Source: Melioribacteraceae bacterium (GTDB lineage Bacteria > Bacteroidota > Ignavibacteria > Ignavibacteriales > Melioribacteraceae). From it: a stretch of DNA of 43,099 bases. The stretch spans positions 1 to 43,099 of the forward strand of contig JALSTI010000208.1 of assembly GCA_026983795.1 (NCBI GenBank). The letters are read 5' to 3'. The position numbers and the translations under genes are program-made. The notes beneath the pieces were generated by a model that saw nothing but the letters and a program-made list of their open reading frames with translations, was not told the DNA's origin and did no database searches. Below are positions 6,889 to 34,106 of this stretch, piece after piece; the first letter of the stretch is position 1; each line of letters opens with the position of its first letter.

Positions 6889-6970
6889 AATTTTATAATT
6901 CTACTATTTACACAGAAAAATATTGTAAAAATTAATTATAATTCGGTTCTACATTTTGGAAATATAATAT

Positions 6971-8076: not shown

Positions 8077-8598
8077 TTACCGTGTTACACGAATTACAAG
8101 CAGAGTCAGATTAACAACCGCCACAAAAATCCTTAACGAAATGTTAAACCAGTCCTTGAAATAAAGTTTAGGCGAACCGGGAACAATTAATATATCTTTA
8201 GCAATTAATTTTGGAACCGTTCTGTTTTTGATCTCAATTTTATCTTCCCAAAGCAGGTCTTCAAAATTGAATTTAAACATTTGTTGAGTAGAATCTGGCA
8301 GAACGCGGTAGAGCCTAAGGTCGTCCAAATGTGAATTACCGGTAGGACCGCCGGCATAAGAGAGCAAATCAATAAGATTTGTATAAATTGGGACTAAATA
8401 TCTACCGGGATATTTAATAAAACCCCACACGGAAACCTTCATATTTACTGCTTCGGGATCTGAATAATCGTAAAACCCTCCTTGACGTTGATAAAGGCTT
8501 TTATATGCTGCGCCTAATTCAACATCTTTAATTTGGGCAAAACCGGAGTTATAACTGATAAAAGACAGCACAAGTATGAAAATAATTTTTTTAAGCAT
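8077..8598 (-). CDS. Short SLBB-domain polysaccharide-export-type protein
   Basis: A 173-residue periplasmic protein with a signal peptide (cleavage plausible after FAQ, residue 22) and one SLBB-type beta-grasp domain: VSVWGFIKYPGRYLVP, then LIDLLSYAGGPT and a VPGSPKLYF end. It closes with a hydrophobic helix (about 150-170) that could anchor it. SLBB domains are found in OPX/Wza exporters of polysaccharide, but those also carry an N-terminal polysaccharide-export (PES) domain and a lipobox, both absent here. It is encoded just downstream of a WbaP-like initiating transferase, so a role in export or assembly of the same glycan is likely. It may be an accessory partner to a full exporter elsewhere. 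Confidence 0.8.
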   Translation of the reverse strand: MLKKIIFILVLSFISYNSGFAQIKDVELGAAYKSLYQRQGGFYDYSDPEAVNMKVSVWGFIKYPGRYLVPIYTNLIDLLSYAGGPTGNSHLDDLRLYRVLPDSTQQMFKFNFEDLLWEDKIEIKNRTVPKLIAKDILIVPGSPKLYFKDWFNISLRIFVAVVNLTLLVIRVTR

Positions 8599-8691: not shown

Positions 8692-10134
8692 TTATTCACC
8701 ACCTTTAGAAAATAACATTACAGGAATAGTTTTAAATAAAACTTGTAAATCCAGCCATGGGGACATGTTGTTAATATAATATAAATCCAATACAACCGAA
8801 TCTATAAACGAAACTTTACTTCTACCCCAAACTTGCCAAACCCCGGTACAACCCGGCAGTACATTAACCCTTCTCTTTTGCCAGCTATCATAATTTTCAT
8901 ATTCATAAGGCAACGAAGGGCGCGGACCAACCAAACTCATATCTCCTTTAATTACATTGAACAGTTGGGGCAGTTCATCTAATGATGTTTTCCTTAGTAT
9001 TTTGCCTATCCATGTAACTCTACTTTGATTAATTATTTTTGTTCCTTTTTCATGCGGTTTGCTGTTTTTCATAAAATCTATCATCTTTTGCTTTCTTTCT
9101 TCATCATCTTCATTTTCAACTCTCATGGATCTGAATTTATAAAACTCAAATTTATATCCGTTTTTTCCCACTCTAATTTGTTTGTAAAATATTGGTCCCG
9201 GTGACGAAAGCTTAATTAATATTGCAATTATGAGCATTATGGGAGAAAGCACTAGTAAGACAACAATAGATATAAGTGTATCGAAAAATCTTTTAACTGC
9301 AAGCATAAAATTATTGTTATAATGAGGCGAAACACCTAAAACAGGAATGCCGGCGTATTTTTCAGTAGAGGTATTTACTTTTTGCGTCACAACATCAAAC
9401 AATTCCGAGCTTAATTTTACACTTATATTCAGTTTATTGCATTCGTCTAAAATTTCAAGAAGTCTGTCGTAATTAATATTATCAACAGCAATTAATACTT
9501 CGTTTACTTTATATTCCGTTTTAATCCGGGGAAGGTCTTCAATTCGCCCAATAATTTTCATTCCGTGAATAATTTCATTTTTTTTCGCTTCCCTGTCAAC
9601 CACAAATCCTTGAATATTTAAACCTTCGGGATTTTCAAACAATAATTTTGTAGCTAATAATTTTCCTGCGTTTCCATCTCCAACTATTACTATGTTATTC
9701 TTAAACGAACGATTTAATCTTAATAAGATTGATCTGAATAATCCGACTCTGAAAATAAATAGTAAAGGAATTGCAATAAGACAAAATATGAAAATAATTA
9801 ATCTTGAATCGAGAACCTCGGAAGATTTTACAAGATGTGAAATTACTACAATATTTAATGTACCGTAATAAAGAGATTTAATAATTGCCGTTAGGTGTGC
9901 AGAACGGTTAAGGATTATATTGATTTTGTATAATCCGTTTATTTGAAAAATAATAATAAAAAATAACGTTGCAATTAAGAAAAGAAATAAAATAGGTAAC
10001 GCAGCATCTACAAATTGGGAAAGGTTTAATGATTTATCGTATCTTACAAAATAGGCAGCCAGCAAAAACGCAAACGACAAAATACCAATATCGGCAAGCG
10101 TAAAATAATATTTGTACTTAGGAATTTTATTCAT
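8692..10134 (-). CDS. Undecaprenyl-phosphate sugar phosphotransferase (WbaP/CpsE type)
   Basis: Starts glycan repeat-unit assembly by moving a sugar-1-phosphate from a nucleotide sugar to undecaprenyl phosphate at the inner membrane. Architecture is the full polytopic form, about 480 residues: four or five N-terminal helices, a Rossmann-like CoA_binding_3 domain (IVIVGDGNAGK), a re-entrant helix (KRFFDTLISIVVLLVLSP), then the catalytic domain with SPGPIFYKQIRVG, FEFYKFRSM, LRKTSLDELPQL, N-IKGDMSLVGPRP and PGCTGVWQVWGRS. The Asp-Glu pair of SLDELPQ is the catalytic dyad of this superfamily. The frame opens with TTG at 10140; the ATG at 10134 is the more likely start. The sugar cannot be told, although WbaP-type enzymes commonly use UDP-Gal or UDP-Glc. 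Confidence 0.93.
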   Translation of the reverse strand: MNKIPKYKYYFTLADIGILSFAFLLAAYFVRYDKSLNLSQFVDAALPILFLFLIATLFFIIIFQINGLYKINIILNRSAHLTAIIKSLYYGTLNIVVISHLVKSSEVLDSRLIIFIFCLIAIPLLFIFRVGLFRSILLRLNRSFKNNIVIVGDGNAGKLLATKLLFENPEGLNIQGFVVDREAKKNEIIHGMKIIGRIEDLPRIKTEYKVNEVLIAVDNINYDRLLEILDECNKLNISVKLSSELFDVVTQKVNTSTEKYAGIPVLGVSPHYNNNFMLAVKRFFDTLISIVVLLVLSPIMLIIAILIKLSSPGPIFYKQIRVGKNGYKFEFYKFRSMRVENEDDEERKQKMIDFMKNSKPHEKGTKIINQSRVTWIGKILRKTSLDELPQLFNVIKGDMSLVGPRPSLPYEYENYDSWQKRRVNVLPGCTGVWQVWGRSKVSFIDSVVLDLYYINNMSPWLDLQVLFKTIPVMLFSKGGE

Positions 10135-10328
10135 ATCCAAATTATATTAATTTCAATTATAATTTACCACAAAAAAATGTTTAATCTAATTTATTTCTTT
10201 ACAAAGATTATACCTTCCGGTCAAATTCTAATTTCAATACGTTTAATAAAATTATTTTGATTCATATTAAAATATTTAAGATAAATCAAACTAGTATTTT
10301 CCTTTAATTTAATAAATGTGCATTAAAA

Positions 10329-10375: not shown

Positions 10376-12628
10376 TTATACTTTTGACCATTCTTTTTGT
10401 TTGGTTTCTTCCGCCCTATGATAATATTTTGTATGGTTGTATTTATTATATGATCTATAACCGGTTGTATTGTAGTCAAAATTATTCAGCACAACACCTA
10501 CAAACGATTTTTGACCGTTTTTAGTCATTAAGTCAACTGATTCAATCAACCAGTCAACCTGCGTGGTTGTAGCGAAAACTACTAAAATTGAAATATCAAC
10601 AAGATGCGAAAGAATTTCGGCATCCGTAATAGTCATGACAGGCGGCGAATCTAAAATTACGACATCATATTCTTGTTTTAATTTTTGTAAAAAGTCTTTC
10701 ATTTGTGCTGATGATAAAATTTCGGACGGATTAGTAGGTATTGTTCCCGCTGCAATATAATATAAATTTTCGATCGGGGTTTTCCTTATTACCTCTGAGA
10801 ACGACGCTTGTTTGAAAAGATAATTAGTAAATCCGGGGGAATTAATTCCATTAAACACAGCATGAATTCTGGGGATTCTTAAATCACAATCTAATATTAA
10901 AGTTTTTTTACCGGACTGAGCAAAACTTGCTGCCAAATTTGCCGCAACTGTCGTTTTCCCCTCTTGTGGTGCCGAAGAAGTAACAAGAATTGTCTTTGCT
11001 CCGTCTGTAAGTTTAGAAAATTGAATTCTTGTTCTTAATGATCTATAAGCTTCACCGGCAGCAACTTCATTAAATCCTTGCACAAATATTTCATTTTTTA
11101 TTTCATCCCGTTTGTAATTTTTCTTAAACTTTGGGATCCAAGCTATTACATTTAGGCCAAGATTTTCAATATCGTCTGGAGTTTTAACTGACTTATCGAA
11201 ATAATCCTTAAAAAAGACGAATCCAAATGCAACCCCAAATCCTAAAATTAAACCGAGTATGGAAATCAATAAACGGTTAGGTTTTGCAGGGCTGTAAGCA
11301 GGCTCTGCCGGACTCATTACAAGAACATTTCCCGGGGTTGATTGTTCATTGATCAAAGCTTCTTGATATTTATTTTCCAAAACCAAATAAAGTTTTTCCA
11401 AAGCTTTTCTTTTTCTTTCCAATCTTGCTAAATCCAACGCTTTTTTAGGCAATGCATTAAACTTCTGATCATATGATTTTAATACTTCATTTAATTGATT
11501 ATAGGAAGATAACAAGGTTTGATATTTAACTTGCTTTTCTAAAATTTTCTCTCCCAATTTTTTAATTTCTGTAGGGCTGGCTGCTAAAGCCTTTGACTGA
11601 TATTCCGCGATAGCTTGATTAAGTTTTTGTTTTAATCTGTTAATTTTTTGGTTATATTGCTGAATAAGCGCATTACTACCCGAACCTGAAGCCATAACTC
11701 TATTTTTTTGGATTTCTATATTTGTGATTTCTTCTTGTATCGCTTTAATGGTTGGTTCCGAAGCTTGTCCTTCCAAATATGGAGTTAACGTAGGATCCTT
11801 TTTAGCCATTTCACTTTTATACTGATTTAGAGCTGTTTTTGCAGCGGATAATTCAATTTTAACCCTTTCTTTTTCAGATTCGAAATTGGCATAAGTATTA
11901 ACCAATTCTGTAGCCTGTTGATCCAAGACTGCTCCGCCCGTCTGTAATTGATAGGCTTTTACATTATCTTCAGCTAATATTAATTCGTTTTGAATTTCAT
12001 CTTTTTGTTCCGCTAGAAAATCTTTTACTTTCGTTATTTGTTTTCTGCTGTCTTGTAAATTAAATTTTCTATAAACATCCGCATAAACATTTGCAACTAA
12101 AGCAGCTTCTCTTGGAGAAGAAGATTCTACTTTAATTTCCACAAAATCTAAACCGTCTTTTTGCTTTATTTCAACTTTGTCTAACAAAGTACTGGCTAAT
12201 GATTTATAGGATTTTAGCGTGGGTTGCTGTTTACTGAATAAAGAAGAATGCTGTCTTAATATAACATTAAAATCGTCAGTTTTTTGTAGATTTTTAAATG
12301 AATCAATTAATACTTGTGCAACCATTTCGCGAATAGTTTTATTCTTCATTATTTCAATTTGATTCGCAATAAATCTATCGGTACTGGCATTTCCAAATGT
12401 AGCGGGAAATGGAGAGTCTAAAATGTTCTGTCCTTCACTCTTTTTTATTCTTAATACAGTTTCACTTTTATATACGTCTTTAGCAGTCATGGCATAAATT
12501 AAAGTTACGCCAAATATTACTAAACTAATAATGAGAACAATAGTTAAATTAGAACGAATCAGATTCCAGTAATTTAATGTGGTCTTTACTTCAGTTCTTT
12601 TTTTCGAATTTGAAAATCTATTATTCAC
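10376..12628 (-). CDS. Wzc-like polysaccharide co-polymerase / BY-kinase
   Basis: Controls polymer chain length and export through a Wzz domain plus a bacterial tyrosine kinase. Order: N-terminal helix (LTIVLIISLVIFGVTLIYA), periplasmic Wzz region, long coiled coil (about residues 200-420), proline-rich stretch and second helix (PAEPAYSPAKPNRLLISIL...), then the kinase: Walker A APQEGKTT, Walker A' LILDCDLRIPRI, Walker B VVILDSPP, about 200 residues from the end. The tail has six tyrosines in its last 32 residues (YNTTGYRSYNKYNHTKYYH), the usual autophosphorylation cluster. The frame opens at a TTG at 12658, but a GTG at 12628 has AGGAG five bases upstream (12634-12638) and is preferred. It is its own transcription unit. 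Confidence 0.95.
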   Translation of the reverse strand: MNNRFSNSKKRTEVKTTLNYWNLIRSNLTIVLIISLVIFGVTLIYAMTAKDVYKSETVLRIKKSEGQNILDSPFPATFGNASTDRFIANQIEIMKNKTIREMVAQVLIDSFKNLQKTDDFNVILRQHSSLFSKQQPTLKSYKSLASTLLDKVEIKQKDGLDFVEIKVESSSPREAALVANVYADVYRKFNLQDSRKQITKVKDFLAEQKDEIQNELILAEDNVKAYQLQTGGAVLDQQATELVNTYANFESEKERVKIELSAAKTALNQYKSEMAKKDPTLTPYLEGQASEPTIKAIQEEITNIEIQKNRVMASGSGSNALIQQYNQKINRLKQKLNQAIAEYQSKALAASPTEIKKLGEKILEKQVKYQTLLSSYNQLNEVLKSYDQKFNALPKKALDLARLERKRKALEKLYLVLENKYQEALINEQSTPGNVLVMSPAEPAYSPAKPNRLLISILGLILGFGVAFGFVFFKDYFDKSVKTPDDIENLGLNVIAWIPKFKKNYKRDEIKNEIFVQGFNEVAAGEAYRSLRTRIQFSKLTDGAKTILVTSSAPQEGKTTVAANLAASFAQSGKKTLILDCDLRIPRIHAVFNGINSPGFTNYLFKQASFSEVIRKTPIENLYYIAAGTIPTNPSEILSSAQMKDFLQKLKQEYDVVILDSPPVMTITDAEILSHLVDISILVVFATTTQVDWLIESVDLMTKNGQKSFVGVVLNNFDYNTTGYRSYNKYNHTKYYHRAEETKQKEWSKV

Positions 12629-12658
12629 TTTTACTCCTAAAATTATTTGCTTTACCAA

Positions 12659-13088: not shown

Positions 13089-15923
13089 CTATTTTAGTAA
13101 GATCATCTTCTTACTATCAACAAATTTCTTTCCATTATTGCCTACGGCATTTATGGTATAAATGTAAATTCCACTCGTCAATTGAGAAGCATCAAAATTT
13201 ACCGTATGCCAACCGGCGCCAAAATTATTTCTTGCTAACTCAATCAATCTTTGACCCAGTAAGTTATAAACCGTAATTGTTACATCCGCTTTTTCAGGTA
13301 ATCCGAATCTAATTGTGGTAGAAGGATTAAACGGATTCGGATAGTTTTGCTTAAGACTGAATTCAGTGGGTAACGATTCTCCCTCATTTTCAACCCCAAC
13401 CAAAACATCTATCAAAAATTCGTTACTGTATTGTGAAACGGTATCTTTATTAAATGCATATACACGATACAAATACGAAGTAGAATCTGATACATTTACA
13501 TCCATATAACTTGTTGAATCTTGAGCAACTGTGTCAACAACTTCAAAGGTGGAACCGACTGCCGTGCTTCTTTTTTCAATTACAAATCCGTCTTCATTAT
13601 CGGAATTATCTACCCAAGTTAATACGGGAACTCCGAATTGAGGATGTAATGAACCAGCCAAATCGGTTGGTGCATTAATTGGTACAATTACTGTCGTAAC
13701 ATTTAATGTGTCACTATAATAGGAATAATTAATGGAATTAAAAGCTTTTACTCTGTAATAATAAGCAGTATTACTAAGTACGGTAGAATCTACGAAATTT
13801 GTAGTATTAGCTGTCAACGTATCCAGCACAACGAAATTCGAAGGATCATTTGTAGAACGTTCTACAACGAACCCATCTTCATTGGTTGAATTATCTGTCC
13901 AACTAAAAGCAACCACACCTGGATTATTTGATACTAAGGTTAGGTTACTGGGTGAATTAACAACTCCAAATGGACCTAATTCATAGTTATGTGTTATTTC
14001 CTGTTGACTTAAAGAACGCGGGAAAATAGCGATATAATTTAATAATCCTAACCAAGGTCTAGAATCAATTAGCTCATTACCTAATGAAAGCCTGTATGTA
14101 TTATTCCAATTAGAAAAGTCACCGTTAGCAGCCATCGATGCTACGACTTGTCCGTTTATATAAAGTTTTCCGCCGTTTGTGTTATCGTATGTATAAACTA
14201 CATATTGGAATCCTTGACTAACCATTCCGGCCGGGCTTGATAATGCAGGGACACCGTTATCATCCGTACCCGAAGTTCTGGTCCTGAACTCATAACTACT
14301 TCCATTTTGGAGTAGAGAGAAGTTTCTGTAAAGTCCGTCTTGAGAAACGGTTAGAATACGTGCCGGACCGCTTTGTGAAGTATCAGCCGGGGCTATCCAG
14401 GCTTCCACTGTCAAAGCATTACTTGCCGTACATTCATTATAAATTTTGGTAGCTGCCGTTCCGGATAAAATTGTTGGTTCCGAAACAATCTTTAAACCGT
14501 TTAAGTTCCAAGATACAGCCGACGGGGAATTGATTGTTAAATCCAACGGAGTACCAAAACCGGAAACATCAGAGACAGATTCTCCACTTCCCTCGTTAAA
14601 TTTATAAAGCGCTACCACGCCATCGGTTACTCGGCTATCAGGTAATAAAACATTTAATTGAGCAGGATTGCTCGCAGTACTACCATCTGAATTTGATATT
14701 ATACATCTATAGGAACCGGAATCACTTTGTTGAATATCAAATATGGTATAGGTCTTTGATGTTGCTCCTGTAATATCTGTACCATTTTTCTGCCATTGGT
14801 AGCTCATCGGATTTGTACCAACAGCCTCAACTGAGAATGAGACCGTATCACCGGCAAATGCATATTGATCACTCGGTTGGTTAATAATATAAGGCGTAGT
14901 TTCATGATTGACACCTAAAGAATAATTTTGGTTCACTTCCACATCGGTTAAGTGTCTATTATAAATTGAAAGCAAATAATATTCCCCTAACCAAGGTAAA
15001 CTGGCATCTTTTTCATTTGCAAGAAGTAACTTGAACGTATCATCCCAATTGGAAAAATCTCCCGATGAAGTTCCTGAACTATCTACTACTCCGTTTATGT
15101 AACATTTCCAATTTCCATTGGCATCTCTGGTAAAAACAATATGTGTAAGCTGGGTGTTTACAGCTCCCACACTTGAAAAGCCCACAGAAGGTAAACCGTT
15201 ATTATCTGTTGCCGTGGTTCTGGCTCTGAATTCATATGTAGTTCCGAAGACCGGACCCATTGCAAAGTTTCTGGCTGACAGTCCGCTGGAGTTAGTTACA
15301 ATATTACGCATTCCGGAAACATTGTTTTCATCAGGTCTTACCCAAGCTTCAATTGTTATTTCATTACTTGATTTACAAGCCGAGATTATTTTAGTTGCTG
15401 GATCAAGTGATCTAATAATACTACTACCATTTATCTTTAATCCATAAGGTGTCCAGCTTACCGCATCAGGAGTTGATATTCTTAATTTTAAAGGTGTTCC
15501 AACTCCGGAATGATCATTTATGTTAATTCCGCTTCCTTCATTAAAATCATAAAGGACCTGAATACTATTTTGAATTCTTACTCCGCTTTCACTCACATAC
15601 AGTTTAACCGTATTAGTTTCAACCGAACCCTGTGAATTTGATACAACGCAAGAATATGTTGAATTGTTATCTCCAATAACGGTCGGAGGGACAGTATAAG
15701 ACGGTGTATCGGATAATGCTATATTTACACCATCTTTTTTCCATTGATAATGTAATGTATCGGCACCGGTAGCTACAACCGTAAATGTAGCGGTCTGACC
15801 GACAATAGTTCCTTGATCAACCGGTTGTTGAACAATAGAAGGCGCTTGTCCGAATACAAGCATGTTGAAGCTGCTGAAAATTACGAATAATGCAGCTACC
15901 CAAAATGTTTTTCCTATTTTCAT
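13089..15923 (-). CDS. Secreted Ig-LamG-Ig-LamG-FN3-FN3 protein with T9SS sorting domain
   Basis: A 944-residue cell-surface protein. Order: signal peptide (1-26, cleavage after FGQ), Ig-like 1 (27-111, with YQWKKDG and YSCVVSN), LamG/concanavalin-like 1 (114-337), Ig-like 2 (343-426), LamG 2 (430-651), FN3-like 1 (656-745) and 2 (749-841), and a type A T9SS C-terminal domain (855-944: QNYPNPFNPSTT ... YNLLGQ ... SGIYIYTI ... KKMILLK). There is no catalytic domain, so it is probably a glycan-binding or structural adhesin; LamG folds often bind carbohydrate. AGGAG lies seven bases upstream of the ATG. It is the last gene after two GT2 genes, with 48 bases between, so polymer synthesis and this surface protein are probably co-expressed. 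Confidence 0.9.
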   Translation of the reverse strand: MKIGKTFWVAALFVIFSSFNMLVFGQAPSIVQQPVDQGTIVGQTATFTVVATGADTLHYQWKKDGVNIALSDTPSYTVPPTVIGDNNSTYSCVVSNSQGSVETNTVKLYVSESGVRIQNSIQVLYDFNEGSGININDHSGVGTPLKLRISTPDAVSWTPYGLKINGSSIIRSLDPATKIISACKSSNEITIEAWVRPDENNVSGMRNIVTNSSGLSARNFAMGPVFGTTYEFRARTTATDNNGLPSVGFSSVGAVNTQLTHIVFTRDANGNWKCYINGVVDSSGTSSGDFSNWDDTFKLLLANEKDASLPWLGEYYLLSIYNRHLTDVEVNQNYSLGVNHETTPYIINQPSDQYAFAGDTVSFSVEAVGTNPMSYQWQKNGTDITGATSKTYTIFDIQQSDSGSYRCIISNSDGSTASNPAQLNVLLPDSRVTDGVVALYKFNEGSGESVSDVSGFGTPLDLTINSPSAVSWNLNGLKIVSEPTILSGTAATKIYNECTASNALTVEAWIAPADTSQSGPARILTVSQDGLYRNFSLLQNGSSYEFRTRTSGTDDNGVPALSSPAGMVSQGFQYVVYTYDNTNGGKLYINGQVVASMAANGDFSNWNNTYRLSLGNELIDSRPWLGLLNYIAIFPRSLSQQEITHNYELGPFGVVNSPSNLTLVSNNPGVVAFSWTDNSTNEDGFVVERSTNDPSNFVVLDTLTANTTNFVDSTVLSNTAYYYRVKAFNSINYSYYSDTLNVTTVIVPINAPTDLAGSLHPQFGVPVLTWVDNSDNEDGFVIEKRSTAVGSTFEVVDTVAQDSTSYMDVNVSDSTSYLYRVYAFNKDTVSQYSNEFLIDVLVGVENEGESLPTEFSLKQNYPNPFNPSTTIRFGLPEKADVTITVYNLLGQRLIELARNNFGAGWHTVNFDASQLTSGIYIYTINAVGNNGKKFVDSKKMILLK

Positions 15924-15971
15924 AAAAGAACTCCTGTATTTTTTTATATGATGTTTAGTTAATTATTAAGT

Positions 15972-16982
15972 TTATAAATTATTTAGTTCTTGCGAAGGTT
16001 CTTTAATTATTTTTTCACCAATTTTGTCAACATTGGTTTTGGGAGAAATAACATCTTCAATTATATAATCTTTTATATCTTTGGCATGGGTAAAAATTAT
16101 TAATTCCCCTATCAATCCTATAGAAAAGGCTAAAACGCCAAAAACTATGAGCAATATACTGACCAATAAAATTGGTCTATCGGCAAGAGGCACACCTAAA
16201 AAGGCTCTTTGAATAAAGAGGTAAATTCCTAGTATTAAGCCCAACAGGAAAATAATTAAACCCGAACTTCCGAAAAACCTTATCGGTTTCTTAGTAAATT
16301 TCACTAAAAAGAACATTGAAATTAATTCGAGGAATCGTTGCACATAATTTTGCAAAGGATAAAAAGATTGCCTTATATCCTTTTTATGCTGTGTAACCTT
16401 AACTTCTTTTACCTTAAAACCGTAACGCCAAGCCCAAAGCGGTAAAAACCTGTCTTGGTCACCATACATGTAAATAGTTTCCAATACTTCACGCTTAAAC
16501 GCCCTTACATTACATTTTAAATCATGAAATTTAATTCCGAGAAACAATTTAATTACAGAATTGAACATTTTGGATTGAAGACTATTTAAAGCACTGTCGA
16601 GCCTCGGGAATCTCCACCCGACTGCCATATCGTTTGTTTTTAGTGTATCAACCAATTTTTTATAATCTTTTGCCTCAACTTGGTAATATGAAGGAAGAGT
16701 TAAAATGTATTTTCCGTTAGAATTGTTAAAGCCAATTTCCAAAGCTGTTGCGTCTCCAAACCACCTTCCTAATTTTATAATTTTAACTTTTTCGCCGTTT
16801 TTGTTCAGTTCCAGTAATTGATCATAAATTTCCGGAAGCGCTCCATCTATCACATAAACAACCTCATAGTCTAATCCTGTGTTTTCCAGTCCCTTTTTGT
16901 ATTCATAAAACAAGGATTTTGGATCATCGTAATAATATTTTTCATAGTAAACAACAATTGCAGATATAATATCAGATTGCAT
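15972..16982 (-). CDS. GT2-fold glycosyltransferase paralogue, probably inactive
   Basis: A 336-residue homologue of polyprenyl-phosphate hexosyltransferases (DPM1/GtrB group): cytoplasmic GT-A domain, then two C-terminal helices (about 237-257 and 270-297). It aligns along its length with the next gene (for instance LDSALNSLQSKMF with QDNALSRKLPSKI). However, the metal-binding DGD (residues 94-96 of the neighbour) is replaced by PSY (97-99) and the nucleotide-binding DDGSTD by IDGALP. The usual GT2 chemistry therefore looks lost. The frame is intact and shows no decay, so it may be a non-catalytic partner of the neighbour or use different chemistry. It lies 22 bases after the active paralogue. 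Confidence 0.85.
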   Translation of the reverse strand: MQSDIISAIVVYYEKYYYDDPKSLFYEYKKGLENTGLDYEVVYVIDGALPEIYDQLLELNKNGEKVKIIKLGRWFGDATALEIGFNNSNGKYILTLPSYYQVEAKDYKKLVDTLKTNDMAVGWRFPRLDSALNSLQSKMFNSVIKLFLGIKFHDLKCNVRAFKREVLETIYMYGDQDRFLPLWAWRYGFKVKEVKVTQHKKDIRQSFYPLQNYVQRFLELISMFFLVKFTKKPIRFFGSSGLIIFLLGLILGIYLFIQRAFLGVPLADRPILLVSILLIVFGVLAFSIGLIGELIIFTHAKDIKDYIIEDVISPKTNVDKIGEKIIKEPSQELNNL

Positions 16983-17004
16983 AAAATTACGTTCCCAGTA
17001 TATG

Positions 17005-17940
17005 TTAAAACTTATATTTGAAATTGTACATATTTTCTATTTTGATATTCCCGCTTCTATAAATCAGATGACTGATAATACCAAAAAACAATAGTGTAAG
17101 ACTTAAAACTCCAAAAAGAATACTGATTCCCAAAGTGACAACCACAGTTTCTTGATGAAATACAGTAATCTGAACTATGGAAATTAAAAAAGCCAAAACA
17201 CACAAAAGTCCGCTTATAAACGAAGCAGCTCCGAAACTGAAAAGAGGTTTTGAAAAAGATGAGAATACAGTTTTAAGAGCAAATAAATCCAAAATAACTT
17301 TATAAATACGGGATAATCCGTACTTGGAAGAACCGTATTTCCGTGGATGGTGTTTGACTTTTATTTGTGTAAACTTTGCGCCGGCTAAAGCTGTAATAAC
17401 CGGCAAAAGTCTGTGCATCTCAGAATACATCGGAAAATTATTTATAATTTCCGCTTTATAAGCACGAATGGCACAACCGTTATCTTTTACAGGAACTCCA
17501 GTAACGGTTCTAACTAACCAATTGGCTATTTTTGACGGTAATTTTCTGGATAATGCATTATCTTGACGATTATAACGCCAACCCAAAACAATATCATTAC
17601 CCTCTTTAAGTTTTTCGATCATGTTTCCAATATCTTCAGGGTCATTTTGTAAATCGCCATCCATTGTTACTATATATCTTCCACTTGCATGTTGGAAACC
17701 AGCATGAAGCCCTGTTGTTTGCCCGTAGTTTCTTTTAAGTTTCACAACTTTTACGTTTGTACTATTCTGAGTCAATTGTATTGCTTTTTCTAACGTTCTG
17801 TCCGTACTTCCGTCATCAACAATTATCAATTCATAAGTATAATCAAGCTTACCCATTGCTTTTGAGACAGCTTCGTATAAGGGAATAATTGATTCTTCCT
17901 CGTTATAAAAAGGTATTACAATGGATATATCCATATACAT
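17005..17940 (-). CDS. Polyprenyl-phosphate glycosyltransferase (GtrB/DPM1-like GT2)
   Basis: Transfers a sugar from a nucleotide donor to polyprenyl phosphate on the cytoplasmic face, giving a lipid-linked sugar for later use outside. 311 residues: GT-A domain with IVIPFYNEE, VDDGSTDRT (D42-D43), the metal-binding D94-G-D96 in VTMDGDLQNDPEDI, the GWRYNRQD loop, then two C-terminal helices (about 233-260 and 266-292), the classic GtrB layout. It is the first gene of a unit that continues with its degenerate paralogue and the T9SS LamG protein. No GtrA-like flippase is next to it. An ATG at 17940 or 17934 could be the start. Confidence 0.93.
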   Translation of the reverse strand: MYMDISIVIPFYNEEESIIPLYEAVSKAMGKLDYTYELIIVDDGSTDRTLEKAIQLTQNSTNVKVVKLKRNYGQTTGLHAGFQHASGRYIVTMDGDLQNDPEDIGNMIEKLKEGNDIVLGWRYNRQDNALSRKLPSKIANWLVRTVTGVPVKDNGCAIRAYKAEIINNFPMYSEMHRLLPVITALAGAKFTQIKVKHHPRKYGSSKYGLSRIYKVILDLFALKTVFSSFSKPLFSFGAASFISGLLCVLAFLISIVQITVFHQETVVVTLGISILFGVLSLTLLFFGIISHLIYRSGNIKIENMYNFKYKF

Positions 17941-18482
17941 ATTTTTGTTTTATAATTTTTAAAGAATAATCATAAATCGTGCCGTACTAAAATGCGTACT
18001 ATGAATTATGTTATTATCGGATATAAATAAGAATTATTTAATATTATTGATTTTCTTTTCAATAAAAACAATTTTAATTAATGCAAGTAACAAAAAAAAA
18101 TTATAAAGAGCAACTAAATATTTTATTTTTAAGAAGATAGAACATTTTACTTAAAGTAAATTCTTTGCACGGTTTTTATAGAGTTCGCCCTCAAAAACCC
18201 GTCTTTGAATTCACAGGAAGTTGGAAAAAATGCTTAATAGCTTAAGATTTTACTGATTTGCTTAAAAAGTTGGAAATACTTTTAAGATAAGAAGGAATAT
18301 TTAGAATAGATTTAAGGTAAGCCAATGTGGATATAAAAATTTTCTTAAAATAATATGTAAGAAAAAAAATGTAAAAAAATTTTACAGAACAATATCCTTT
18401 TTACATAAAACTTTGCTTTTTTATTTACCGGATAAAGTAAACCGGCCTATTATAAAAGTCTTAGTTAAAATTACATCATAAG
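17941..18482. promoter_or_regulatory. AT-rich 540-base gap
   Basis: No gene could be supported here on either strand. By position it should hold the promoter for the GT2/GT2/LamG unit that reads leftwards and the end of the SGNH gene transcript. A short GC-rich patch (CCGG repeated at 18429-18443) forms only weak hairpins, and no clear rho-independent terminator or promoter pair was found. Confidence 0.4.
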
Positions 18483-21167
18483 TTATTTTACTAAGATTAA
18501 CTTTTTTACTTTACTGAACCGAAGTTTATTATCATTCGAAAAAGCTTTAAATGAATAAAAATAAATTCCGGAAACCAGATTCCCGGCATTAAAAGTTATG
18601 GAATATTTTCCTGGTTGCTCTATTGTATTAACTAAATCACGAATTTTTTGTCCTAATGAATTATAAATAGTTAATTTTACATTACTTTCAACCGGAAGAG
18701 AATATGATATAGTTGTAGTTGGGTTAAACGGATTAGGATAATTTTGCGAAAGTGCAAATTGAGTCGGTAACTCTTCACCTTTTGTATCTTCAACAGGAAC
18801 TAAAAATAGTGTTACCGTGTCACTGGGTTCAGATTTTACATAATCCGTATAAGAAAAAACACGGTACTGATATTGTAAAAAGTTTTTTTGCGTTGAATCG
18901 GTATAAGATGTAACATTAGATGCAACCGTATCAATAACCTTGAAAACCGAATCATTATTTGCCGGACGCCCTTCTATAATAAAACCGTTTTCCACATTTG
19001 AATTATCGTCCCAAAATATATTAACTACGCTCGAATCTATTACTAATTTTGCAGTTACATTACTGGGTTTTGAAATTTTGGTCACGCCGTCCAATCCAAA
19101 AGAATAATTATGAACAACTTCCGAATTATTTAAAGCCCTGTTATATACAGCGGTATAAAACAATGTGCCTTCCCACGGTCTTGCATCCGTAAATTCATTA
19201 CCCAGACCGAATGAATATGAACTATTCCAATTGGAAAAATCGCCGCTTACATTAAGACTACTAACCTCCACACCATCAATAAAATATTTTGATTCACCGT
19301 TTTTATTATGTGTATAAACGACTTGAGTAAGTTTCAAGGATGAAAAAGCAGTGCTATTTAATGCCGGTTTGCCATCCAAATTAGTACTTGTAGTTCTCAA
19401 ACGTGTTTGGAAACTACTGCTGTCTTGGCTCATAGTAAAATTTCTTTCATCTTTATTTTTAGAATAGGTAACAATTCTTGCCGGACCGTATTGAACTTGC
19501 AAGCTTGGTAACAGCCAAGTTTCGATTGTTATTTCATTCGATTGAGTACAAGAATCGTAAATTTTTGCAGGAGGGGATCCGGAGGATATTAAAGCACCCG
19601 ATTTAATTTTCAAGCCCAGCGGCACCCAATCAATTTTACTTGTATCGTTAATTTGTAAATTTAAGGGCGACCCGACACCGGATATATCATCTACAAACTG
19701 TCCGGCGCCTTCGTGAAAATTATATGCCACTTGAATTCCAGCCAAAACCTTTTTGTTTTGAGGAGTTACATAAAGCGTTACCTCATCAGTAAAAACTGAA
19801 GCGGCTTTATTATAAACTTCGCATACATATTTTGAACCGCTATCGGATAATGAAACAGAAGAAAGCGAATATGTAGAAGCATTGGCACCACTTATAATAG
19901 CACCGTTTTTATACCATTGGTAATGCATACCGGTTGTATCCGTAACTGAAACCGAGAAACTCGCGCTCTCACCTTCAAACACACCTTGCGAAAGCGGTTG
20001 TTGCGAAATTACAGGAGGGCTTCCTAAAATCAACTTTATGGTATTAAACCAAACATTTGCCATCTTCAAGTAACCCTTTTCGTTAGGGTGCAATTCCGAA
20101 GACATATCGCCGGCAATACCATCGCCAATAGTACCGATGGAATCTATGGTATAATCAAAACCGGGAATACTTTCCATATTCACAATTCTTATATCATCAG
20201 GGTAATGAGGATTAGCAGGATTTATAACTCTATCTAATGCCATATTTTCAACACTATCATTAAATACCGTCACATAACTTTGATTCGGAGACCTATTAAT
20301 AATTCTAGCAAGAACAACAGTAATATGTCTTCCTGTAGAATCCTCATATCTATCTATTTCATTTAATATATCCTCAACATCCCACGGACTTGTACCTCCA
20401 GTTTCGTTGTTGCCGTTTGTTCCTATATGTAAAAGAATGATATCAGCTGGATAAGTTTCCAAATAAGGACCAGGAGTTACAGTATCATTTACCGAAGGTG
20501 GAATTTGCTTAATACCGGTCTTAAGTAAATATGCTAATTGATGATCTTTAATTCCGGGAAAACCTGCATTTCTATCAAAATTCGATGGTAGAAAATTCCA
20601 CCCTGAATGCTCGCTACCGGTAAATTCAAATTGATATCCTGCTGTTATCAATGAATCGTATAAAAAATAGCGATATCCTTTTCTGTCTCCGTCCGTAAGG
20701 TTACCATTTGTAATACCGAATGTGATAGAGTTTCCCAAAGGCATTATAATAGCCGGTTTAAAAGTTCCGGTTATTTGAGTGCTATTAGATTTATTCAAAC
20801 TACTGTTGTAAATTACATTAAAAAACGAATCACTTACATCAAAATATTTTCCCGTTTTATCCTCAACTTTTATAATAATGTTTTTGTTTATGAGATTCGG
20901 AATTCTCCAACTTATCGTACCCAAATCAGCCGGAACATTTTTATATATTAAATTCCAACTTTTACCATTATCTATTGAATAGCTTAAATTTACCCTATTA
21001 ATATTTTTCGCTTTCCAGGATATTCCGTAATACAACCCGGCTTTAAATTTTTCACCGCCATTCGGTGAAACTAAACGTAAAGATGTTTGTGCGAACGAAT
21101 AATTATTTAATAAAAATAAAGCACATAAAATTAAGCTGCCAAGTTTGATAAAAGAGTGTTTTTTCAT
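18483..21167 (-). CDS. Secreted SGNH hydrolase with Ig, LamG, FN3 and T9SS domains
   Basis: An 894-residue surface protein. Signal peptide (1-26), an N-terminal Kre9/KNH-like beta domain (about 28-120, SPNGGEKF ... ISWKAKN), an SGNH/GDSL esterase domain (about 138-382), Ig-like (385-467), LamG (473-694), FN3-like (700-787) and a T9SS type A sorting domain (803-894). Catalytic blocks: Ser147 in PLGNSITFG, Gly205, GTN at 249-251, His360 in ELHPNEKGY. The Asp expected three residues before His360 is Ser357, with Glu358 next to it. SGNH enzymes of this kind often remove acetyl groups from polysaccharide, so deacetylation of the local polymer is a fair guess. AGGTGG precedes the ATG. Its Ig-LamG part matches both modules of the protein at 13089. 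Confidence 0.9.
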   Translation of the reverse strand: MKKHSFIKLGSLILCALFLLNNYSFAQTSLRLVSPNGGEKFKAGLYYGISWKAKNINRVNLSYSIDNGKSWNLIYKNVPADLGTISWRIPNLINKNIIIKVEDKTGKYFDVSDSFFNVIYNSSLNKSNSTQITGTFKPAIIMPLGNSITFGITNGNLTDGDRKGYRYFLYDSLITAGYQFEFTGSEHSGWNFLPSNFDRNAGFPGIKDHQLAYLLKTGIKQIPPSVNDTVTPGPYLETYPADIILLHIGTNGNNETGGTSPWDVEDILNEIDRYEDSTGRHITVVLARIINRSPNQSYVTVFNDSVENMALDRVINPANPHYPDDIRIVNMESIPGFDYTIDSIGTIGDGIAGDMSSELHPNEKGYLKMANVWFNTIKLILGSPPVISQQPLSQGVFEGESASFSVSVTDTTGMHYQWYKNGAIISGANASTYSLSSVSLSDSGSKYVCEVYNKAASVFTDEVTLYVTPQNKKVLAGIQVAYNFHEGAGQFVDDISGVGSPLNLQINDTSKIDWVPLGLKIKSGALISSGSPPAKIYDSCTQSNEITIETWLLPSLQVQYGPARIVTYSKNKDERNFTMSQDSSSFQTRLRTTSTNLDGKPALNSTAFSSLKLTQVVYTHNKNGESKYFIDGVEVSSLNVSGDFSNWNSSYSFGLGNEFTDARPWEGTLFYTAVYNRALNNSEVVHNYSFGLDGVTKISKPSNVTAKLVIDSSVVNIFWDDNSNVENGFIIEGRPANNDSVFKVIDTVASNVTSYTDSTQKNFLQYQYRVFSYTDYVKSEPSDTVTLFLVPVEDTKGEELPTQFALSQNYPNPFNPTTTISYSLPVESNVKLTIYNSLGQKIRDLVNTIEQPGKYSITFNAGNLVSGIYFYSFKAFSNDNKLRFSKVKKLILVK

Positions 21168-27726: not shown

Positions 27727-28473
27727 TTAATGTAGACGGGTCTTTAAAATTTTAGCAGGAACACCGCCTGCAATGGAATATTGCGGAACTTCGCCTGAGA
27801 CAACAGCTCCGGCAGCTATAACGGAACCCTTTCTTACCTTACTGCCGTCTAACAAAACAACGTGTGCAGCTATCCAAACGTCCTCTTCCGTTAACACTCC
27901 TCCTTTTCCTTCAAAGTCCGGTTGTTGATTTATCGGAATATCTGTCCGTTCTAACTTATAATTTCCACCTCCTACAATGTATGAATAAGCGGCAATTAAA
28001 TTATCTTTACCAATTATCACATTGTTAGATGAAAAAATTTCGCAATTGAAACCCACGTTTGCTCTTTCTTTTAATGTAATATTACCCCCTTTACAACTTA
28101 ATATTGAATTGCGGCCTATAAAAACTTCGTCGTCTAATACTATTCCTTCATTGTCAGAACCTTTAGCATCGAGCAATACATTATCGTCAATAATAACATT
28201 ATTACCAAGTTTAATTTTTTGGGGATGTCTTAAAACTATATTTGCGCCAAACACCGCGCCTTTTCCAACTTTACCCAATAACATAGGATAGAATTTACCT
28301 CTTAGAAAAACACCCAAAGCACCGGGTATCCGGGAGAAAAATAAAACTATTAATTCATATTTGATTAAATAAGATAATTTTGTGCTGCCTATAACTAAAT
28401 CCATATACCTTTGAAGTTTTGATTTTTTCTGTCCGGAAATAGAATTTTGAATTTTAAAATCTTTGTTACTCAT
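27727..28473 (-). CDS. Hexapeptide-repeat acyltransferase (WbbJ-like)
   Basis: Probably O- or N-acetylates a sugar of the repeat unit using acetyl-CoA in the cytoplasm. A 248-residue left-handed beta-helix protein: stacked repeats of the (I/V)-G-x4 kind (VIIDDNVLLD, EVFIGRNSIL, NITLKERANVGFNC, NVIIGKDNLI) and the family ending WIAAHVVLLDG, GSVIAAGAVVS, YSIAGGVPAKILKTR. The first 50 residues are helical and basic. It is 13 bases after the SDR gene. Acceptor sugar not identifiable. Confidence 0.88.
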   Translation of the reverse strand: MSNKDFKIQNSISGQKKSKLQRYMDLVIGSTKLSYLIKYELIVLFFSRIPGALGVFLRGKFYPMLLGKVGKGAVFGANIVLRHPQKIKLGNNVIIDDNVLLDAKGSDNEGIVLDDEVFIGRNSILSCKGGNITLKERANVGFNCEIFSSNNVIIGKDNLIAAYSYIVGGGNYKLERTDIPINQQPDFEGKGGVLTEEDVWIAAHVVLLDGSKVRKGSVIAAGAVVSGEVPQYSIAGGVPAKILKTRLH

Positions 28474-28486
28474 TTTTATTCACCGT

Positions 28487-29467
28487 TTACAATAAATTGT
28501 TTTTTTTATACCATTCGGCAGTTCTTTTTAATCCTTCATCCAAACTGACTTTAGGCTTATATCCCAAAATTTTCTTTGCCTTACTTATATCGAAAGCTCT
28601 GTCCTTAATAAAAAAATCAATTCTTCTTCTATAAATTGGAGGGGTGATTTTTAAAGGTTTACAAATAAACTCGCAAAGGGCTCCTGCAAACCAAACCGGC
28701 CAAACAGGTATTGATTTTGTTGGAACAGGTTTGTTTAATACTTTTGCAATTTTTTCTACTAATTCTTTTAATGTAAGATAACCTTCGCCACCAATTGTAA
28801 ATACTTCGTTATTAGCTTCATCTTTTTCGCCAGCCAAAGCTATTCCTTCTGCCAAATCCTCTACATATGTTAAATGATATAAAACGTTTCCATCTCCTAT
28901 CATTCTGAACTTACCGTTGTATATGTATTTAAATAGTTTTAAAAATCTAGTATCACCGGGACCATATATTCCAACAGGTCTAACGACCGTACCGTGTAAA
29001 TCATTATTTTTAAAAAATTCCAATGCCAGTTGTTCCCCCTCAACCTTAGATTTCTGATAATAATCACCTGGATTATAAGGGTCTTCTTCCTTTGCCGGCG
29101 GATTTTTAATATACCCTTGGACGCCAACCGTACTACAATGCACAAATTTTTTTACTCCCGCATTTTTAGCGGCAACTAATAATTTTTTTGTTCCCTCCAC
29201 ATTTACATCCCAAAAATAACTTTGAGGCACATTTTCAATGCGGAAAGCCGCACCTACATGAAACACAATATCTATTCCCTCCATAAAACCGATATCAATT
29301 TCATCTTTAGCCAAGTCAGCGTAAACAAGTTCAATATTTAGTCCCATTAAATTTTTAAGATCACTGGTTTTTCTGACCAACGCTCTAACTTCATAACCTC
29401 TATTCAATAAATTTTTCACTAAATAACTACCGGTAAAGCCGCTTGCGCCAGTAACAAATGCTTTCAT
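28487..29467 (-). CDS. NAD-dependent epimerase/dehydratase (extended SDR)
   Basis: Interconverts or oxidises a nucleotide sugar or polyprenyl-linked sugar. 326 residues: G7-A-S-G-F-T-G13 NAD-binding motif, the CSTVG strand (S112/T113), Y137-x3-K141 catalytic pair in YYQKSK, and RPVGIYGPGD. It follows the GlpD-like gene with a one-base TAATG overlap (29467), which points to translational coupling and a shared pathway. The substrate could be a UDP-sugar (dehydratase/epimerase) or a glycolipid; related proteins include many hypothetical hydroxysteroid-dehydrogenase-like SDRs. Confidence 0.88.
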   Translation of the reverse strand: MKAFVTGASGFTGSYLVKNLLNRGYEVRALVRKTSDLKNLMGLNIELVYADLAKDEIDIGFMEGIDIVFHVGAAFRIENVPQSYFWDVNVEGTKKLLVAAKNAGVKKFVHCSTVGVQGYIKNPPAKEEDPYNPGDYYQKSKVEGEQLALEFFKNNDLHGTVVRPVGIYGPGDTRFLKLFKYIYNGKFRMIGDGNVLYHLTYVEDLAEGIALAGEKDEANNEVFTIGGEGYLTLKELVEKIAKVLNKPVPTKSIPVWPVWFAGALCEFICKPLKITPPIYRRRIDFFIKDRAFDISKAKKILGYKPKVSLDEGLKRTAEWYKKNNLL

Positions 29468-31002
29468 TAAACTTTTCCTTCTTTATTAATCAATTTTTGA
29501 TATCCTCTTTTTTTGTAATAATCTTTAAGTTTTTCGATTTCAGCGAGTTCTTCTTCACTATTCCACTCAAACAGTTTACAAATTTCCCTTGCAACATTCA
29601 GTGCATTACCGGGGTTGTCTCCAATAGTCGTTCTTCTTAAAAGTAAGTCACTTAGATGAACCACATATTCATTTTCAATTTTATACTTTAGTACATCCTG
29701 CCAATTTCTTTTATCCTTTTCAGGATTCCAATCAAAATCGAATCTTCCATATTCCAAATCGGAAGATACAGGGAAGGTTAATTTTTTAACGCTGTTAATT
29801 ATATTTTTATCGAAAATGGCGCTTAATACCTTTTCCGCAACCAATCTGGAAGTGGTTAATTTAACGCCTGATAAACTATACAGACCATCAGGTCCGCCAT
29901 ATTTTTTATGATTAATTATTACTTCCCTTACAGCCAACTCATCATCGCCTTCATACTTTGCAGGAAGCAATCCCGAATAAATTTGAAGAATTTCGGAACG
30001 TTTTAAATTTAAATTTGGTAAAGAAAGATTTAAATCGTCAATAAAATCCGATAAACTTTTTTCCGTCGGCATGGGGAATTCGCTTAATTTATTCCATGGT
30101 TCGTGAATTGTACCGGCTAAAAATTTACCTTTCCAGGGTCTTATAAAATAAGTCCTTGCATCTTTTTTAGGCGGAGTAACAGCCAGCGCGTAACTGGATA
30201 ATTGTTTTCTATCGAATAGAACATTTGTTGCAATTGAGTATTTGAACAAATTTTTGAAATCTTTATGAAAATATTGTGCCAGCGTACGGCTCCAGGGACC
30301 CGTTGCATTAATAACTATATTAGATTTGAATTTGTATTCATTTCCCGATTCCGAATCCAAGGCAACCACACCAGAAATTTTATCCCCGTTTTTCAGTATG
30401 TCTTTAACTTCCATATAGTTAATTGGAGTGCAGCCATTATTTGCAGAGGTTTTAAGAATTTCCATAAGTACTATTTGCGAATCGGGTATTGAACCGTCAT
30501 ACCATAACGCCCCTCCCGCTAATCCGTTCAAATAAATGTCGGGGAATAATTTTCTTACTTCATTAGCCGGAACAACTTTGCCGGAGTTTATACGGTTTTC
30601 ATTGTTAACATTTTTGTTTCTTGAAAAAGATAGAGTATCGTTCAGTTTTAATGCAATTTTTAGTATCGAAGTTCTTTTTACTCCTTTGTTATAAAGCGGC
30701 ATAATACAAGCAATGGGCTCGGTAAGTTTTGGGAAGTTTTTAAGGAACCATTTCCTTTCGGCTACCGATTCTTTGAATCTATGCAAATCAAGCGATTGTA
30801 AATATCGCAACCCACCGTGTATTATTCTTAAACTGTTAAAACTTGTAGCCGAACCAAAATCATTTTTTTCTAACAATAAAGTTTTTATTCCCCTTCGCGC
30901 AGCTTCGTACGCAAGCATTACTCCATAATACCCGCCGCCAATAATAATAGCATCGTACTCTTTTTTTAATGCACTTTCGATACTTTTACGAATTTTAGTC
31001 AT
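29467..31002 (-). CDS. GlpD-like FAD-dependent glycerol-3-phosphate dehydrogenase family protein
   Basis: A flavoprotein of the FAD-dependent glycerol-3-phosphate dehydrogenase family. 511 residues: FAD-binding I-I-G-G-G-Y-Y-G at about 20-27, the family box IIHGGLRYLQ, and a C-terminal DAO_C-like domain with DLLLRRTTIGD. A true GlpD feeds glycerol-3-phosphate electrons to quinones. Its placement in a glycan operon, joined by a TAATG overlap to an SDR, suggests a specialised oxidase of a sugar or a glycerol-phosphate decoration. No other glycerol gene is near. The family assignment is firm; the substrate is inference. Confidence 0.85.
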   Translation of the reverse strand: MTKIRKSIESALKKEYDAIIIGGGYYGVMLAYEAARRGIKTLLLEKNDFGSATSFNSLRIIHGGLRYLQSLDLHRFKESVAERKWFLKNFPKLTEPIACIMPLYNKGVKRTSILKIALKLNDTLSFSRNKNVNNENRINSGKVVPANEVRKLFPDIYLNGLAGGALWYDGSIPDSQIVLMEILKTSANNGCTPINYMEVKDILKNGDKISGVVALDSESGNEYKFKSNIVINATGPWSRTLAQYFHKDFKNLFKYSIATNVLFDRKQLSSYALAVTPPKKDARTYFIRPWKGKFLAGTIHEPWNKLSEFPMPTEKSLSDFIDDLNLSLPNLNLKRSEILQIYSGLLPAKYEGDDELAVREVIINHKKYGGPDGLYSLSGVKLTTSRLVAEKVLSAIFDKNIINSVKKLTFPVSSDLEYGRFDFDWNPEKDKRNWQDVLKYKIENEYVVHLSDLLLRRTTIGDNPGNALNVAREICKLFEWNSEEELAEIEKLKDYYKKRGYQKLINKEGKV

Positions 31003-31038
31003 TTTTCTTTTGTAAAATTTTTCCGGTTAAATAAAATC

Positions 31039-32913
31039 TTATAACCACCGTCTTTTCCAATCGTGAAAAACAATTAACGACCACAATATGTGGCTATGAT
31101 TTTTTTCCCCTGCCAGATGTTCGCTTTTCAATTTTGCGATTATTTCAGGGTCAAAAATGCCGTCGGATTTAATAGTGTTTTCATTTAATAAATCTTCCAT
31201 TAAAGGTCTAAATTCATTATTAAGCCAATTTTTTATAGGTATTGAAAATCCTTCTTTGGGACGGTAGATACTTTCTTTAGGAACGCGTTTAGCGGCAACT
31301 TTTTTAAGTATTATTTTTGTTTCATTAGCATTGGTTTTAAATTTAGAAGGGATCTTAAAAGCCAATTCGACTAAATCTTTATCTAAAAACGGAACTCTTG
31401 CTTCAAGCGAAACGGCCATAGACATTCTATCTACTTTTGTTAATATGTTATCTACCAAATAACTTTTCACATCCACGTATAAACTTTTGTTAAGCTCTTC
31501 ACGTTTACCTGCTCTGTTAAATAAATTAAAAATGTGTGATTCGGCAGGGTGACTTATTTGTTGTAAAGTTTCATTAGAAAACAAACTTTGTCTTATTGAA
31601 TTATTAAGGAATATTCTCCAGCGCGCATGCGACAATCCCTTATCATGTTCCAAACCTTCAATAAATCGCTTTGATTTATTAATTAAACCCTTCTTTTTTG
31701 CCGTAGGTTTCAAAGAATTGATTAAAGGTTCAACAAACCCTTTACGTAAAAACGCAGGAATTCTGCCAAACTGTTTTGCTTTTTCATCGGCAAGATATGT
31801 TTCGTAACCTCCGAACAATTCATCGCCCCCATCGCCGCTTAAACTAACGGTAACATATTTCCTGGCAAGTCTTGAAACTAAAAATGTAGGAAAAATTGAA
31901 AAATCACCAATAGGATCATCCATATATTGCATTAGTTGGTTAAACAGATTAAGCACATCCGGTTTAATTATTTCGTCCTTATGGTCAACTTTAAGATAAT
32001 TAGCAACTTTTCTTGCCCAATCTAATTCATTGTAAGTAGGATCGTCGAAACCTATACTGAATGTTTGGGCATTTCCCATTGCGGAAACGATTAAGGAGGA
32101 ATCAACTCCGCCCGACAAAAATGCACCTAACGGTACATCACTTATCATTTGCATGCGTGTTGATTTTTGAATTTGATACTCAATTTTTTCAATCCAATCC
32201 GATTCGGATAAATCAAACTGATTTTCTTCGTAAACGGGAATGTCCCAATATTCTTTGGGCTGGTTGACAGGATTAGCTAAATCAACCTTTAAATAATGAG
32301 CAGGTTCTAATTTGCTAACTGAATTAAATAAAGTTGCTCTTCCGGGAATATACTCCCATGAAAGGAATTCATTAAGAGCATTGAAATTAATTTCCTTAGG
32401 CACTAGTTTACTTTCCAGAATAGCTTTAATTTCGGACCCGAAAATTATTTTGTCATTTAAAAAAGAATAATATAAAGGTTTTATTCCTATATGATCCCTT
32501 ACCAAATAAAATTTATTTTTTTTAATATCGTGCAGAGCTATTGCAAACATTCCATTCAGATGTTTAGGGAACTCATCGCCATATTCTTCGTAAGCATGTA
32601 CAATAACTTCGGTATCCGTATGCGTACGGAATACATGCCCTTTTTTCATTAGTTCTTCTTTGAGTTCCGGGAAGTTATAAATTTCCCCATTAAATACAGT
32701 CCACACCGATTTATCTTCATTATAAATCGGTTGACTTCCACCTTTAAGATCGATAATCGATAATCTTCTCATTCCTAAAGCTGCGCCGGCATGAATGTTC
32801 ATACCCGCTTCATTAGGTCCGCGATGATATAATGTATTAACCATCGCACTTAACATATCCCTTGAAATTGGGGGAGAGTTATGAAATGTAACTACTCCGG
32901 CTATTCCGCACAT
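31039..32913 (-). CDS. asnB: AsnB-type glutamine-dependent amidotransferase
   Basis: Uses glutamine and ATP to amidate a carboxylate. The N-terminal glutaminase has Cys2 as nucleophile (MCGIAGV) followed by LYHRGPNEAG; the C-terminal synthetase has the P-loop-like SGGVDSS and LSGDGGDELFGGYETY. Length 624 is normal for AsnB. In polysaccharide clusters AsnB homologues are often thought to amidate uronic acids, so it may act on a sugar rather than on aspartate; asparagine synthesis cannot be ruled out. It lies one base from the upstream GT4 gene (32915) and 36 bases from the GlpD-like gene, clearly in the operon. Confidence 0.92.
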   Translation of the reverse strand: MCGIAGVVTFHNSPPISRDMLSAMVNTLYHRGPNEAGMNIHAGAALGMRRLSIIDLKGGSQPIYNEDKSVWTVFNGEIYNFPELKEELMKKGHVFRTHTDTEVIVHAYEEYGDEFPKHLNGMFAIALHDIKKNKFYLVRDHIGIKPLYYSFLNDKIIFGSEIKAILESKLVPKEINFNALNEFLSWEYIPGRATLFNSVSKLEPAHYLKVDLANPVNQPKEYWDIPVYEENQFDLSESDWIEKIEYQIQKSTRMQMISDVPLGAFLSGGVDSSLIVSAMGNAQTFSIGFDDPTYNELDWARKVANYLKVDHKDEIIKPDVLNLFNQLMQYMDDPIGDFSIFPTFLVSRLARKYVTVSLSGDGGDELFGGYETYLADEKAKQFGRIPAFLRKGFVEPLINSLKPTAKKKGLINKSKRFIEGLEHDKGLSHARWRIFLNNSIRQSLFSNETLQQISHPAESHIFNLFNRAGKREELNKSLYVDVKSYLVDNILTKVDRMSMAVSLEARVPFLDKDLVELAFKIPSKFKTNANETKIILKKVAAKRVPKESIYRPKEGFSIPIKNWLNNEFRPLMEDLLNENTIKSDGIFDPEIIAKLKSEHLAGEKNHSHILWSLIVFHDWKRRWL

Positions 32914-32914
32914 A

Positions 32915-34099: not shown

Positions 34100-34106
34100 T
34101 TGAGTT

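Follow-up and report, generated by a model that had tools for sequence, protein, structure and literature searches.

Two surface proteins encoded inside a polysaccharide locus of a Melioribacteraceae genome share an Ig-LamG block, which stands in tandem in protein A and is joined to an SGNH domain in protein B, and in related genomes of the order the same LamG module again lies among polysaccharide genes. We hypothesize that both proteins, which carry T9SS sorting domains, act on the polysaccharide made by the cell's own locus, as matrix lectins with a docked deacetylase; we consider the chances of this reading to be about even. The window referred to below is the whole stretch of DNA that was analyzed, 43,099 nucleotides in length, and its relevant features are collected in Table 1.

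The genes of the locus, all on the minus strand, encode an SLBB export protein, WcaJ-like and Wzc-like proteins, GT2 glycosyltransferases, a GT4 glycosyltransferase, a Wzy-like ligase/polymerase, an AsnB-like amidotransferase, an epimerase, a hexapeptide acyltransferase, and a polysaccharide deacetylase. This gene set is a surface polysaccharide locus, which our preferred explanation takes to be of the Wzx/Wzy type. Cotranscription of the protein A gene with GT2b is plausible because the two lie on the same strand with a gap of 48 bp; the protein B gene is 542 bp from GT2a. Between the protein B gene and the polysaccharide deacetylase gene is an open reading frame (21342-22664, minus strand) for a 440-amino-acid exported protein with a subthreshold C25 (gingipain/PorU-type) match, and no ortholog of it was found in the loci of the congeners. 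The AsnB-like protein (31039-32913, minus strand) scored 629 bits against the XrtA/PEP-CTERM amidotransferase model, for which the cutoff is 817, and this match in a T9SS-linked locus points to kinship with exosortase-type EPS loci.

Table 1. Features of the two surface proteins and of the surrounding polysaccharide locus in the window
Feature	Position	Strand	Remark
SLBB (Wza-like) polysaccharide export protein	8077..8598	-	
WcaJ-like initiating sugar-phosphate transferase	8692..10140	-	77-78% in congeners
Wzc-like chain-length/kinase protein	10376..12658	-	
Surface protein A, 944 aa	13089..15923	-	ORF and domain matches
T9SS sorting domain of protein A, residues 861-934	13122..13343	-	
Ig-LamG block 2 of protein A, residues 343-650	13974..14897	-	Used for structure model
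Ig-LamG block 1 of protein A, residues 27-337	14913..15845	-	
GT2b, GT2 glycosyltransferase	15972..16982	-	Partner of GT2a
GT2a, ArnC/PgfS-like GT2	17005..17940	-	Conserved pair with GT2b
Surface protein B, 894 aa	18483..21167	-	ORF and domain matches
T9SS sorting domain of protein B, residues 810-876	18540..18740	-	
Ig-LamG block of protein B, residues 384-691	19095..20018	-	
CE3-like SGNH domain of protein B, residues 133-383	20019..20771	-	
Hexapeptide acyltransferase-like gene	27727..28473	-	
Sugar-core genes: epimerase, FAD oxidoreductase, AsnB-like, GT4, 34107 ORF	28487..34928	-	

From its N terminus, protein A consists of a signal peptide, two Ig-LamG blocks, two FN3-like domains, and a T9SS type A sorting domain, and protein B of a signal peptide, an N-terminal beta domain, a CE3-like SGNH domain, one Ig-LamG block, an FN3-like domain, and a T9SS sorting domain. 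Pfam matches in both proteins were to Ig_3/I-set, Laminin_G_3, a weak FN3, and Por_Secre_tail, with GDSL/SGNH in protein B; no beta-prism or FG-GAP match was returned by Pfam for either. The three Ig-LamG blocks are 40 to 43% identical to one another over 308 to 313 positions (BLAST E values of 1e-72 to 1e-80), a likeness that far exceeds chance. The original prediction described a block of about 310 residues used three times in two proteins, one without an enzyme domain and the other with an SGNH hydrolase, and the open reading frames, coordinates, identities, and Pfam matches all agree with it. A search of the contigs of this genome found no further full copy, the three of this locus being the only ones. 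Recent duplication of the blocks was considered and ruled out, the module positions of protein A being orthologous across the genus.

Surface export of both proteins is well founded because SprA (877 bits), PorU (986 bits), and sorting tails are all encoded in the genome. Both tails score above the TIGR04183 cutoff of 23 bits (39.1 and 29.4 bits) and both N termini are hydrophobic and, as judged by eye, signal peptide-like, which is the combination looked for in T9SS type A cargo; the claim that these are surface-bound proteins with T9SS sorting domains is upheld to this extent. Ninety T9SS sorting tails were counted in the genome. Four of them are encoded 10 kb or less from a GT2 gene, a lower bound given the short contigs, and two of the four are proteins A and B; a polysaccharide locus is therefore not the usual site of a T9SS gene in this organism.

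The LamG parts matched Laminin_G_3 (PF13385) with E values of 3e-37 in the protein with two blocks and 3e-15 in the protein with one (128.7 and 57.3 bits against a gathering threshold of 27.6). An AlphaFold model of block 2 of protein A (pLDDT 93.2, pTM 0.85) shows an Ig domain followed by a concanavalin-like jelly roll. Structure searches placed the LamG part of the model with concanavalin-like and LamG-like domains at Z scores of about 20, and the matches of the model also included sialidase lectin domains. The nearest solved LamG domain is domain 4 of the arabinanase AbnA (5HON; Z 20.2, 2.8 Å over 193 residues), which was solved with arabinotriose and has the same jelly roll; it differs in being part of a secreted degradative enzyme and only 18% identical to the LamG block, and the likeness is one of fold. 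Clostridial neurotoxin binding domains, also among the PDB matches, were set aside as sharing the jelly roll only (9 to 18% identity). The modeled fold is of a carbohydrate-binding type, from which sugar binding cannot be read by likeness alone; LamG jelly rolls generally bind proteins as well as sugars. The FNEGSG / DFSNW / NE..PW / NYxxG pattern, proposed earlier as a shared feature, is indeed present in all three blocks but is not particular to them, since of 57 positions conserved among the modules of the order, 50 are the same in LamG modules that have no glycan locus nearby. As judged from these alignments, the pattern is a general signature of a LamG subfamily and not a locus-specific one.

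For the SGNH domain of protein B, a sequence search returned 2vpt (E value of 3e-6), and the best structural matches of its model, which is of moderate confidence only (pLDDT 63), were the CE3 esterases of Talaromyces and Clostridium thermocellum (5b5l/5b5s, Z 14.8; 2vpt, Z 14.7; next match, 13.1), making CE3 the closest fold. Block I of CE3 enzymes has the motif GXSXT (PMC9487903); it reads GNSIT in protein B and GNSIT or GDSIT in 11 of 11 aligned sequences. The HIGTN and HPN..GY blocks are also retained in protein B, and no aligned homolog has lost any of the Ser, Asn, and His blocks. At triad position His-3, protein B has Ser in place of the Asp found in most relatives, and one homolog from L008 has Ala; the catalytic Ser and His themselves are present. 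The solved CE3 esterases CtCes3-1 (2VPT) and TcAE206 (5B5S) share with protein B the fold, the GXSXT block I, and the C-terminal His block, whereas protein B stands in a biosynthetic locus, is joined to an Ig-LamG block, and has Ser for the triad Asp. By sequence and predicted fold the domain is CE3-like, and for that reason its predicted chemistry is likelier to be de-O-acetylation than chain cleavage; the trimming of the polymer that had been ascribed to this enzyme fits poorly.

Scans with the whole block were swamped by common Ig-only matches, and the later searches used LamG alone. With this profile the module was found in 11 of 146 genomes, namely, the window's own and relatives of it. 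At least one copy lies among glycan genes in 10 of the 11 carriers; the eleventh copy (G032) is on a 3.7-kb contig, too short for its neighbors to be judged. Within the order, the module as a rule adjoins either the GT2a/GT2b pair or a gene for an O-acyltransferase. The congeners G001 and G003 have, on one contig, the order hexapeptide acyltransferase, SGNH-Ig-LamG, GT2a, GT2b, (Ig-LamG)x2, WcaJ, SLBB, and pieces of this set are spread over three contigs in G002; in all three, the gene directly 5' to SGNH-Ig-LamG is an ortholog of the window's hexapeptide acyltransferase gene (72 to 73% identical). In G021, WcaJ is preceded by the GT2 pair and a two-module protein. Different polysaccharide gene sets adjoin the module in G007, G039, G005, G120, and G129, with genes for Wzx, MBOAT, carbamoyltransferase, pyruvyltransferase, and nucleotide-sugar enzymes, and one copy (G129:C181) adjoins a two-component system rather than glycan genes. 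Hexapeptide or MBOAT acyltransferases occur in most of the carrier loci, and linkage to biosynthetic, not degradative, genes is kept across six genera. T9SS-tailed protein clusters, in which some of the proteins bear SGNH, were also seen inside polysaccharide loci of G007 (L124, 7649-20000) and G120 (L128, 5134-14862).

In a sample of 395 genomes from the phylum, the only carriers outside the family were four genomes in which LamG is part of a single large protein, encoded by an open frame of 1,191 to 2,976 codons with nonglycan genes around it. LamG with the same signature was found away from glycan loci in L007, G178, G186, G480, and G375. Because the four phylum carriers are unlinked and the conserved positions are so largely shared, the module type is general and its linkage to polysaccharide loci is particular to this order. 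Within the order, the linkage to polysaccharide loci is close and conserved, but the description of the module as dedicated does not hold as a general statement, since the same LamG subfamily occurs elsewhere in Bacteroidota/Ignavibacteriota in unrelated large surface proteins that are not encoded near glycan genes. Among the genomes behind loci gathered earlier, 3 of 25 had a match, and viral contigs gave weak LamG matches only (24 to 34%). The Ignavibacteriae contig L007 (507-16231) bears, outside glycan genes, a row of large FG-GAP/Ig/LamG proteins with an identical dockerin-like C terminus throughout.

The sugar core of the locus and the surface proteins have different affinities. Judging by AsnB, which is 38% identical to the window's in the congeners G001, G002, and G003 but 73 to 76% identical in the other genera G007, G021, and G039 (67% in G129), the sugar core has been exchanged between congeners; the oxidoreductase, epimerase, and GT4 follow the same pattern where seen. 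The core type thus differs in congeners and is alike in other genera, and the export and T9SS genes around it form a frame that stays fixed. The surface proteins, GT2 pair, WcaJ, and SLBB are nearest to the congeners' versions (48 to 80%). Each module of protein A forms a clade with its counterparts in congeners (four congeners for block 1), the block 2 clade also takes in G007, and the module of protein B groups firmly with G002 only. Close orthologs of GT2b (at least 47% identity) are present in 8 of the 146 genomes, seven of which carry the module (Fisher P of 1e-8 by genome and 2.6e-4 by genus, uncorrected for kinship). No module was detected in the eighth, G016, where the GT2 pair follows a different T9SS-tailed protein, and no close GT2b was found in the assemblies of the carriers G005, G007, G032, and G129. 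In the G016 locus (L150), a 5,559-base run of N (1801-7359) lies upstream of the T9SS gene preceding the GT2a/GT2b pair. Coevolution of the modules with the core was looked for and not seen, the modules following the species lineage; from these comparisons, the modules are tied to species and GT2 pair rather than to the core. If the cell's own polymer is bound, the target should be its conserved part, and the lack of core tracking counts against a strictly polymer-specific reading.

Secreted proteins of this general kind are known elsewhere. RbmA, RbmC, and Bap1 of Vibrio cholerae are secreted matrix proteins, of which RbmA is encoded in the region of the vps polysaccharide clusters and RbmC bears carbohydrate-binding-type domains (PMC4551309, PMC3161981). 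Proteins A and B resemble them as secreted, predicted matrix proteins encoded beside polysaccharide genes, but the Vibrio proteins have beta-prism, FG-GAP, or FnIII domains, with no LamG named, and use type II secretion; a fused esterase, present in protein B, is not reported for them in the cited texts. The FnIII dimer, beta-prism, and FG-GAP domains of the RbmA/RbmC type were not found in proteins A and B by Pfam, and the two sets, unrelated by sequence, may be alike in function without common membership. CdrA of Pseudomonas aeruginosa is an extracellular protein that binds Psl, a polysaccharide of the same cell, and so consolidates the matrix (PMC4551309), but it is a beta-helical adhesin of unrelated domain makeup. 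RemA of Flavobacterium johnsoniae is a T9SS-exported surface lectin that binds rhamnose and galactose and promotes aggregation (PMC11205867); it differs as a gliding adhesin with another lectin domain and, in the cited texts, no polysaccharide locus. Locus-linked or surface lectins acting on polysaccharide therefore exist, none with this architecture by the tests made.

In the mechanism that we propose, the Ig-LamG block would be a carbohydrate-binding module on an Ig spacer. The tandem modules of protein A would retain or cross-link the polymer at the cell surface, and the module of protein B would hold the CE3-like esterase on the polymer, where it would remove O-acetyl groups added by the locus acyltransferase. 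In three congeners an acyltransferase gene directly adjoins the SGNH gene, and most other carrier loci contain acyltransferases too, which fits such an acetylation-deacetylation pair. What the modules recognize would be a conserved portion of the polymer, built with GT2a/GT2b, rather than the exchangeable sugar core. Against this mechanism stand the unlinked LamG modules of the same signature, the absence of core tracking, the Ser in place of the triad Asp, and the pLDDT of the SGNH model, as well as the four carriers without a close GT2b and the G129 copy beside a two-component system.

It is possible, as a minority reading, that these are ordinary glycan-foraging or adhesive proteins, in which the module binds a foreign polysaccharide such as acetylated xylan, the CE3-like domain deacetylates it, and the position in the locus is accidental or serves regulation only. 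Those CE3 enzymes whose activity is known act on acetylated xylan (PMC9487903), Melioribacter roseus degrades complex carbohydrates and has CBM-FN3-Por enzymes (PMC3534657), the nearest LamG structure belongs to an arabinanase, and the module does not track the core. However, the linkage across six genera, together with the GT2 pair, is to biosynthesis, and a Pfam scan returned no glycoside hydrolase above threshold for the window proteins that it covered. It is unlikely that the LamG block binds no sugar and serves T9SS surface proteins as a structural part or a site for protein binding, with its conservation reflecting the fold. Glycan-linked and unlinked modules share most conserved positions, and such jelly rolls can bind proteins, but the block carries a conserved polar set (R104 N105, R118-x-R120-T, and N127-G-x-P) on and after one strand, which would be unusual for a purely structural role.

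We regard as improbable a reading in which protein B is no hydrolase; its SGNH domain would then be either an O-acetyltransferase or a dead enzyme that binds sugar, and the two proteins would have no function beyond that of lectins. The substitutions at His-3 would be explained in this way, and SGNH folds include AlgX, which is linked to alginate O-acetylation (PMC9487903), but the Ser, Asn, and His blocks and the GXSXT motif are retained, and many CE2 enzymes are thought to use a Ser-His dyad (PMC9487903).

No paper that joins LamG, exopolysaccharide, and T9SS, and none that describes this architecture, turned up in the literature searched, although one may exist elsewhere. If proteins A and B do act on the cell's own polysaccharide, a more specific proposal, which we make tentatively and hold to be doubtful, is that Melioribacteraceae and their kin have a two-protein T9SS matrix system, in which a tandem lectin and a docked de-O-acetylase read a conserved branch or linkage that GT2a/GT2b lay down in the capsule, so that retention stays fixed while the core is swapped. 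How cells of the Bacteroidota type hold a freely exchangeable polysaccharide on their surface is poorly known. Modules that are fixed with the species and the GT2 pair while the core is replaced predict that, on a polymer that varies, the element recognized stays the same; if this is true, the T9SS lectin-esterase pair would be a second design beside the matrix proteins of Vibrio.
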